IMG/VR virus record: IMGVR_UViG_3300006792_000002
Span: 1-42,642 of that record
Length of the DNA stretch: 42,642 nucleotides
Source: a virus
Direction: 5' to 3' (one strand)
Positions 6,611 to 10,170 of the stretch are shown here, piece by piece; the stretch's first letter is position 1; each line of letters starts with the position of its first letter. The notes beneath the pieces are model-generated. The model had not been told where the DNA came from. It worked only from the letters and a program-made list of their open reading frames with translations, and made no database searches. A program made the translations under genes and the position numbers.

Positions 6611-6865
6611 TTATTCGTTGTTTTCTACTTTTTCAAGTGCATAAAAAGGATATACCCATATAATACCTCTGGATAATTTTATACCAACATCAGTTATATC
6701 GGTTATGACATCAACCTGGTTCTCTTTAGCATACTTATCCATCTCGGACGTCCAGCTATTTTCCCATTCACTTTCTAAGGGGGAATCTTTTTTTACTATT
6801 CTTACCTGGTCTCCTACTTTTAAGCCCGATTTTTCTTGAGCTGCAATATATTTAGTTGTTGCCAT
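6611..6865 (-). CDS. Conserved phage protein, SH3-like fold likely
   Basis: This 84-residue protein has the pattern LKVGDQVRIVKKD, then WENSWTSEMDKY, then GIKLSRGIIWVYPFYALEKVE. Proteins with a VGDxVRIV start and a WxxxMD middle recur in phages of many hosts and are predicted to have a small beta-barrel. The role is unknown. It lies directly downstream (minus strand) of the tRNA-like gene and a small hairpin. Confidence 0.7.
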   Translation of the reverse strand: MATTKYIAAQEKSGLKVGDQVRIVKKDSPLESEWENSWTSEMDKYAKENQVDVITDITDVGIKLSRGIIWVYPFYALEKVENNE

Positions 6866-6927: not shown

Positions 6928-7089
6928 TCCGAAAGGCAGGATTTGAACCTGCACGTTGTTATTTGACCGCCTGATGTTTAAATCTCCGGTTTGAACTAAC
7001 AACTGTGGATGACTACCACATTGGCGTCTACCAGTTTCAACGTGTCCAACACGTTCTCTAAGTTAATCTGGCTATTCCGCCACTTTCAG
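6928..7089 (-). tRNA. tRNA-Leu-like gene, abnormally long (162 nt)
   Basis: The 3' end is canonical: T-stem GCAGG, loop TTCAAAT, CCTGC, then CTTTCGG and discriminator A. The 5' end CTGAAAG pairs with CTTTCGG (one wobble), followed by TG and GGCGGAAT, and later TGGTAGACGCC, the typical tRNA-Leu D-arm. About 40 bases split the D-loop, including the perfect hairpin AACGTGT-TGG-ACACGTT and a CCAG/CTGG stem. A second hairpin (TGTGG/CCACA) and a 7-bp GTTGTTA/TAACAAC stem follow. TTTAAAC within that last arm could hold a UAA anticodon, but its stem is poor. It may be an interrupted tRNA, a decayed tRNA or a tRNA mimic. CCA is not encoded. Confidence 0.55.
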
Positions 7090-7212: not shown

Positions 7213-7665
7213 TTACATAAAATCCATTAGTTCCCGTTCAATCAACTCCCTGGTTGCCTCAATGAGGGCAAGGCCAATATCTATGCACTTATTGTAAAAC
7301 GCCGTAAACTCATCCTGTCCCATCTTTGAGAAACTGATACTTGCTGTGTCATACACAATATTACCTTTTGCCGTTACCGCACGGTTGCGGATATGCCCCA
7401 TCTTAATTTTCATATAAAACAGCACGTCCTCCTCGTTATTGAATCGGAATCCCTTTTCAAACGCTTTTTCCTTTTTATGCTCCGGCAGGTAATGTAGCAT
7501 AAGCCTGAAAAAAGCAAAAAGTTTGCGATGGTGCATCGGATTGCGTTCCTTCTTAACCTCATATCTCCTCAATTCTCCTTGTTTGATTTTTTTGGCTTTC
7601 TCCCAGTCGCTATTATGAGCAGGAATGAAGGAACCCTGGTTATTTTTAATTAAGCCTATCTTCAT
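7213..7665 (-). CDS. DUF1367-like phage protein
   Basis: This 150-residue protein matches the layout of DUF1367: an N-terminal LIKNNQGSFIPA, then KIKQGELRRYEVKKERNPMHHRKLFAFFRLML, and a C-terminal region with MGQDEFTAFYNKCIDIG and a terminal helix. DUF1367 proteins are found in early regions of many siphoviruses, usually near replication and recombination genes. Their biochemical role is not established. The gene lies between the tRNA-like gene and the putative ssDNA-binding protein gene. Confidence 0.8.
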   Translation of the reverse strand: MKIGLIKNNQGSFIPAHNSDWEKAKKIKQGELRRYEVKKERNPMHHRKLFAFFRLMLHYLPEHKKEKAFEKGFRFNNEEDVLFYMKIKMGHIRNRAVTAKGNIVYDTASISFSKMGQDEFTAFYNKCIDIGLALIEATRELIERELMDFM

Positions 7666-9234: not shown

Positions 9235-10170
9235 TTAACTATGCTTCTCTTTAACGTAAGCCTCTGGACTCATAGAAAAGCTGGAAAGGTCGCTGTCTCT
9301 TGACAACATCCCATCCGTTGCAGCAATATTAGACGGATTAACTTTCACCGTCCGACTGGCTATTTGAGCATAAGATTTAAAGTTCATAAAATCATCTTCA
9401 GAAACCTTCCTGTTTTTCAACGTGTACTTGCCCTTATTAGAAAAGTCTTTAGGCTTCAAATTCATAAGTAGATCAATTTTTAAGTCTGGGTTGGACTGCT
9501 CCCACGCTAATTTATTCCCGATTAGCTGATATACTTGATCTTTGCTGAGACTACCGGTTTTTAAATCAACAATCGCTCGTTTACGCCCACCGTTAAAATC
9601 AAGCTCCCCTACAAAGTCAAGGGTACAGCACCAACTAAACGGGATACTATCAGACCCATCGTAGCTCCCCATCCACTCCAAGGCTATCACTTCAAAATTA
9701 CGCTCTTGAATAAAAGCCACAATACAAAGTAATTCATTTTTTATGCGATCCGTCCATTGCTCGCGTGTGGCAAGCTCTTCAACAAACTTCGCTTCCTGTA
9801 TGTCGTTTATAGCCCAGTAAACATCCACGGCGTTACCTAACTTGCCTAAATCAATACTGCCGTTTCTAAGTAGCAAGGCGGCCATGATATGTGCAAACGT
9901 GCCGTAGTTAGAGCTATAAAACAGACGCTCATCCAAAAAGGCCAGTTCGTTTTCTTTAAACCATTTTTCTAAAAAATATGGGGTAGGCATCACTTTCTTC
10001 AACCACGTCGTGATAGAGGTATAAAATTTAATTGGATTGGTTTTGTAGTACCACCTGAAATTCTGCTTCTCTAATCGGAAAATATCCGGCTCTGCTACGC
10101 TCTTTCCGCTCCAAAAGGTCGCCGTTGATTCCTGATTGATTAAATCACCTAATATTTTTTCGTAATCCAT
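9235..10170 (-). CDS. PD-(D/E)XK exonuclease, RecB/Cas4-like
   Basis: This 311-residue protein shows the core of the PD-(D/E)XK nucleases: GTFAH (H94) as motif I, CTLDFVGELD (D185) as motif II, and AIVDLKTG (D202, K204) as motif III, then QVYQLIGNKLAWEQ as the helix with the conserved Gln/Tyr. This arrangement is typical of Cas4/RecB-type exonucleases in phage recombination modules, which resect ends for annealing. The ssDNA-binding protein gene nearby supports that. The C-terminal tail of about 50 residues is Ser-rich and probably disordered. Confidence 0.85.
   Translation of the reverse strand: MDYEKILGDLINQESTATFWSGKSVAEPDIFRLEKQNFRWYYKTNPIKFYTSITTWLKKVMPTPYFLEKWFKENELAFLDERLFYSSNYGTFAHIMAALLLRNGSIDLGKLGNAVDVYWAINDIQEAKFVEELATREQWTDRIKNELLCIVAFIQERNFEVIALEWMGSYDGSDSIPFSWCCTLDFVGELDFNGGRKRAIVDLKTGSLSKDQVYQLIGNKLAWEQSNPDLKIDLLMNLKPKDFSNKGKYTLKNRKVSEDDFMNFKSYAQIASRTVKVNPSNIAATDGMLSRDSDLSSFSMSPEAYVKEKHS

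Follow-up and report, generated by a model that had tools for sequence, protein, structure and literature searches.

A tRNA-Leu-like phage RNA with an expanded D-loop, and its many viral relatives with constant ends and exchanged interiors

The closest precedent for the RNA described here is species 1 RNA of phage T4 (rnaC, 139 nt), a small stable RNA that adjoins transfer RNA (tRNA) genes and is annotated without a function (L310:909-1047, i.e., NC_000866.4 70908-71046, minus strand). It comprises an acceptor stem, a 3-bp D-stem, a large D-loop hairpin just before GG, a long variable-arm-like hairpin, and a T-arm, a layout backed by seven pairs changed on both sides among T4, RB69, and two Enterobacter phages. 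The adjacent rnaD (119 nt) folds no better than its shuffles. A catalogue of T-even tRNA-like molecules dates from 1978, as cited in PMC11143913. Other points of comparison are canonical tRNA-Leu (about 85 nt), transfer-messenger RNA (tmRNA), and GOLLD and ROOL, large phage RNAs of unknown function found near tRNA arrays (PMC12286853). Here, we analyzed a tRNA-Leu-like RNA gene in a virus, IMG/VR record IMGVR_UViG_3300006792_000002, positions 1 to 42,642 (hereafter “the window”, meaning this whole stretch of 42,642 nt). The analysis suggests, at a probability that we put at roughly 0.6, that the gene encodes a non-decoding tRNA-Leu-like scaffold carrying a variable, exchangeable RNA domain.

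The gene spans 162 nt including discriminator A73 and runs from 7089 to 6928 on the minus strand, exactly where an initial annotation made from the sequence alone had placed it. The acceptor, T-arm, discriminator, and D-arm flanks of tRNA-Leu which that annotation described are present, along with its perfect 7-bp D-loop stem and its TGTGG/CCACA stem. From the 5′ end of the RNA, the features are as follows.

6928..7089, minus strand: the tRNA-Leu-like RNA as a whole, running from its acceptor to discriminator A73 (at 6928); from sequence and fold (z-score −3.0), with the core kept in 28 distinct relatives
7083..7089, minus strand: 5′ acceptor strand CTGAAAG, 7/7 paired with 6929-6935
7074..7082, minus strand: U8 G9, D-stem 5′ strand GCG, then GAAT (G13 A14 A15 U16); identical core in relatives
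7033..7073, minus strand: 41-nt D-loop insert between GAAT and G18G19, a position common to 67 relatives with D-loop inserts
7039..7055, minus strand: perfect 7-bp hairpin AACGTGT-TGG-ACACGTT within the D-loop insert, from the fold
7024..7032, minus strand: GGTAGA (G18 G19 U20 A20a G20b A21) and D-stem 3′ strand CGC, from sequence; G18, G19, and A20a are determinants for leucyl-tRNA synthetase (LeuRS; PMC9976931)
7004..7020, minus strand: hairpin TGTGG-TAGTCAT-CCACA at the anticodon-arm position, 2 nt off register and with A at loop position 33, from fold and sequence
6955..7003, minus strand: expanded variable-arm-like domain with closing helix GTTGTTA/TAACAAC, internal helices ACCG/CGGT and GAT/ATC, and tip TTAAAC, from the fold
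6936..6954, minus strand: positions 47-48 (GT, U48) and T-arm GCAGG-TTCAAAT-CCTGC; T-arm match to Rfam RF00005, U48 kept in 44 of 46 distinct cores
6928..6935, minus strand: 3′ acceptor strand CTTTCGG and discriminator A73, from sequence

The D-stem is followed by CAA, and about 70 nt then stand where the anticodon and variable arms would be. Like canonical tRNA-Leu, the element has a 7-bp acceptor (one T-G pair), a D-stem, the elbow bases (with U8, A14, A15, G18, G19, and A20a all retained), U48, a T-arm, A73, and a long variable region; unlike it, the element is nearly twice as long, carries a D-loop insert, and has no standard anticodon arm. In a check of its sequence and fold, positions 27-43 did not form a 5-bp anticodon stem presenting U33 and a Leu anticodon, the better-formed 5-bp/7-nt arm being the off-register TAGTCAT hairpin. 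TTTAAAC, proposed initially as a possible anticodon loop, instead caps a 3-bp helix within the variable-arm region, a region enclosed by the further 7-bp helix GTTGTTA/TAACAAC. Overall, the RNA is predicted to fold at −49.8 kcal/mol, compared to −37.7 kcal/mol in dinucleotide shuffles. CCA is not encoded at its 3′ end. ARAGORN called neither a tRNA nor a tmRNA here, and Rfam gave zero matches at gathering scores; at a loose threshold, RF00005 was matched by the T-arm alone.

The comparison with T4 rnaC is one of layout. Both RNAs have nearly the same succession of parts, but rnaC has neither U8 G9 nor the Leu D-arm, its D-stem abuts the acceptor, the acceptor includes two U-U mismatches, and a short single strand stands where the window element has its 5-bp/7-nt hairpin. 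Moreover, rnaC is conserved among T-even phages rather than swapped. No blast match in phages links the two, whose resemblance lies in the layout. The initial statement that no tRNA of this form was known was nearly right, species 1 RNA having a very similar layout. Like tmRNA, the window element couples a tRNA-like end to a structured domain that is not tRNA, but it has G3-C70 in place of the G3-U70 alanine signal and a full Leu-type D-stem, and G3-U70 combined with a tag reading frame was not found in it. GOLLD and ROOL are much larger and not built on a tRNA core; a genuine tmRNA is carried by other phages of the family described below, one of which (G016) has it together with a GOLLD RNA inside a tRNA array (L131:5574-6065 and 9365-9782). 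The window element and its relatives thus represent a variation on a kind of RNA already known but not explained, and their membership is much larger and more variable than the rnaC precedent suggests.

We defined D-loop-expanded tRNA-Leu-like phage RNAs as TGGCGGAAT followed by 22-52 nt and GGTAGACGC, then a T-arm and a complementary acceptor, a definition that the window element fits. Scanning viral contigs for the Leu D-arm motif containing a D-loop gap of 22-52 nt yielded 108 matches, and with the window counted in, 73 of these 109 sequences had a full T-arm and complementary acceptor. A second viral scan, for one common acceptor and D-arm, gave at least 120 matches. In total, at least 157 unique expanded elements were collected across 128 loci, with several per phage (up to seven within one fetched locus, and about eight in phage G016). 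Because these patterns recruit through the D-arm, conservation of the D-arm motif is partly built in, while acceptor pairing, T-arm, middle (the segment replacing the anticodon and variable arms), N48, and N73 are independent of them.

Selection acts on the cloverleaf core as RNA. Over 28 distinct relatives, 97.1% of cells in the acceptor, D, and T stems were paired, compared to 75.7% in shuffles, and 96 cells were double changes, compared to 25.9, with all seven acceptor pairs changed on both sides (counts that used the outer T-arm for L002 and L009). When cores were picked by D-arm motif and T-arm only, with pairing not used in the choice of T-arm, 23 of 28 distinct acceptors were paired at 7/7 positions, compared to 5% in shuffles; of the five that fail, L002 and L009 do so because of a nested T-arm-like hairpin in the middle. 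Such nested hairpins, with loops such as GTTCGAG or TTCGAAT, also occur in L004 and L107.

The D-loop insert is a real, recurring architecture. Inserts fall into recurring types whose loops are conserved and whose stems covary; in type D0, for instance, 100% of cells are paired and the loop is conserved. Looked for in relatives, as the initial annotation had suggested, the insertions recur in the position and architecture of the D-loop insert, but the window’s insert sequence has no match.

Almost every member has lost its anticodon arm or carries something else in its place. Positions 27-43 form a canonical 5-bp stem in two of 67 elements with a D-loop insert, neither with U33, and in combination with U33 in 13 of 121 elements without the insert; these 13 have mostly Leu-type anticodons, and are thus ordinary tRNA-Leu genes. 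Replacement middles span 17 to about 160 nt, and in many members a short single strand leads into a variable-arm-like hairpin. An H-type pseudoknot can be read in one short group, its compensatory change being judged by eye (TCTGGGGCCGGGACACCAGTTAGAAACCCG in L193, TCCGGGGAATGGACACCGGTTAGAAACCAT in L107). Cluster M3 (L228, L286, L122) has an anticodon arm of normal size, the loop being TCGTCTC, TCGTCTA, or CTGTCTC; the window loop TAGTCAT (7004-7020) has GUC at 34-36, as do the M3 loops, which may be chance. We also considered middles as antisense guides to their own phage genome and rejected this, the longest complementary stretches being no longer than for shuffled middles.

Interiors are exchanged as blocks between ends that do not change. 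An identical middle was found with and without a D-loop insert, and an identical insert with differing middles and differing acceptors. At one junction of two conserved phage genes, the loci L023/L088, L270, L203, and L303 align near-perfectly up to AGTCAGGTGGCGGAATG and again from ACAGGTTCGA on, yet between these points their interiors are unrelated, except that L270 and L203 share one; flanking protein A is 92-97% identical among L023, L270, and L303. This swap at a fixed locus was seen in members of the AGTCAGG type, the window phage having no relative for such a comparison. In middle family M0 (L066, L086, L024, L194), eight pairs are changed on both sides. In this cluster, the conserved middle of about 115 nt includes several covarying helices and the invariant blocks CGCAAGGTTGATATTG, AAAACGC, and AAGAGAAA, and has no Rfam match at the gathering threshold.

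The D-insert pattern with a T-arm had zero matches in 257 Gb of bacterial and archaeal genomes, and the AGTCAGG core occurred there in six contigs, every one drawn from a metagenome-assembled genome or an uncultured bin, and three being Chitinophagaceae/Sediminibacterium. Similarity searches found no AGTCAGG type in cultured phages. The motif TAnnTTTG, which we take to be the Bacteroidota −7 promoter element, stands a few bases upstream of 14 of 150 elements, compared to 1.3 expected. No description of this family was found in the open-access literature, although an earlier one may exist. Taken together, these RNAs form a large, apparently undescribed set of virus RNAs.

How such an RNA could work is suggested by what charging requires. 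In E. coli, the LeuRS determinants are A73, the A15-U48 pair, G18G19, and A20a, and tRNA-Leu without its anticodon and variable arms remains chargeable (PMC9976931). The window sequence has A73, A14, A15-U48, G18 G19, and A20a. Since the bacterial determinants are kept and the missing arms are those not needed, the RNA may be leucylated by host LeuRS, for which we see roughly even odds. Its ends are quite probably cut by host RNase P and RNase Z and its CCA added. The tRNA shell, i.e., acceptor stem, D/T elbow, and Leu identity bases, would in that case serve as a stable, host-processed scaffold for the variable domain, and an RNA that is charged but non-decoding would act outside elongation. 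More tentatively, the exchangeable domains could be decoys, antitoxin-like RNAs, or inhibitors of host factors, mainly defence factors; such a role would explain the fast swapping, and fast exchange of inner domains in turn suggests factors that vary between hosts, e.g., defence proteins.

Several observations weigh against a scaffold of this kind. In the minimum-energy fold of the window element, G18G19 are paired to the insert’s CCAG, an arrangement that would break the elbow. Across the family, N73 is A in just 26 of 46 cores, and among 65 AGTCAGG elements that match no recruiting pattern, A15 is present in 48 and U48 in 44 (~70%), so that Leu identity is not universal; some AGTCAGG relatives also have damaged D-loops. 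No close relative of the window phage was found through its two flanking proteins or its insert sequence, so the window element’s membership in the family rests on the shared core and the position of its D-loop insert. Finally, no gene common to most loci could stand for a dedicated partner protein (two gene clusters close to elements mark one insertion site), and no defence target was found.

The initial annotation had offered four readings, a tRNA with introns, a fusion to another RNA, a decaying tRNA, and a mimic that traps host factors, of which fusion or mimicry is best supported. That a decoding tRNA-Leu is merely interrupted by small introns or processed inserts, and becomes normal after their removal, would fit the occurrence of the core with and without the D-loop insert, and one family phage has a tRNA-Leu(UAA)-like gene with an insert of ~200 nt after the anticodon, a candidate intron (G017:52817). 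However, excising the D-loop insert restores no anticodon arm, the canonical 5-bp stem with U33 being absent from 67 of 67 D-insert middles, some middles (17-24 nt) are too short to hide one, and no known intron family in Rfam matched the window. Because no arm is restored in most members and no known intron is present, we consider introns improbable. Decay of a tRNA-Leu gene that gained random insertions is, in our judgment, highly improbable: the weak anticodon loop without U33, the unmatched window insert, and the damaged D-loops of some AGTCAGG elements would be expected from it, but every stem needed for the tRNA shell is intact in the window, the insert folds better than shuffles, and the architecture recurs with compensatory acceptor and T-stem changes, conserved insert types, and upkeep at a fixed locus. 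For the family, decay is largely refuted. A chimeric read or assembly, raised initially as a possible artifact, cannot account for so widespread a family.

Harder to dismiss, although still unlikely, is that the shell persists only as good ends for recombination or RNA processing, with unrelated regulatory RNAs inside and charging irrelevant. Constant ends around exchanged interiors are what this would produce, N73 varies, and other D-arm types, and even a few elements without a recognizable D-arm, stand behind the same acceptor and T-arm. Yet acceptors are diverse and change in compensation, which means that RNA structure rather than a block of DNA homology is kept in single-copy phages like the window phage, and the Leu elbow bases are kept across many independent cores. 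We therefore favor the non-decoding tRNA-Leu-like scaffold with an exchangeable domain.

In the window, the element is flanked by a DUF1367 gene (7213-7665, its stop on the element side) and by an 84-aa reading frame (6611-6865) that share its strand, and the 42.6-kb record also encodes terminase, portal, HK97-type head, and tape-measure proteins. A candidate second structured RNA just upstream of the element was rejected (z-score −0.08). Elsewhere, a further tRNA-like type with a different acceptor and a conserved CGCCTGGT...CCGAA in an expanded middle (L194:837-945 and G010:86399-86501) suggests the use of other isotypes as shells as well. The surrounding locus (L194:200-3700) comprises several kb in which tRNAs are densely packed with seven tRNA-like elements of the AGTCAGG type and with further RNAs that appear structured, and a TTAGAAG...CTTCTAA element near its positions 950-1030 recurs in G016 near 91.9 kb.

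It is conceivable, if doubtful, that many freshwater phages display rapidly exchanged, host-directed RNA domains on leucylated non-decoding tRNA shells, with T4 species 1 RNA as a conserved example. The genes are skipped by standard tRNA tools, leaving an abundant class of phage RNA apparently unannotated, and the shared layout offers a comparative handle on species 1 RNA. If charged without decoding, these RNAs would be natural anticodon-free leucyl-tRNAs. Block exchange of the interior at a fixed site is as expected in an arms race, and points to a phage-host conflict at the RNA level.
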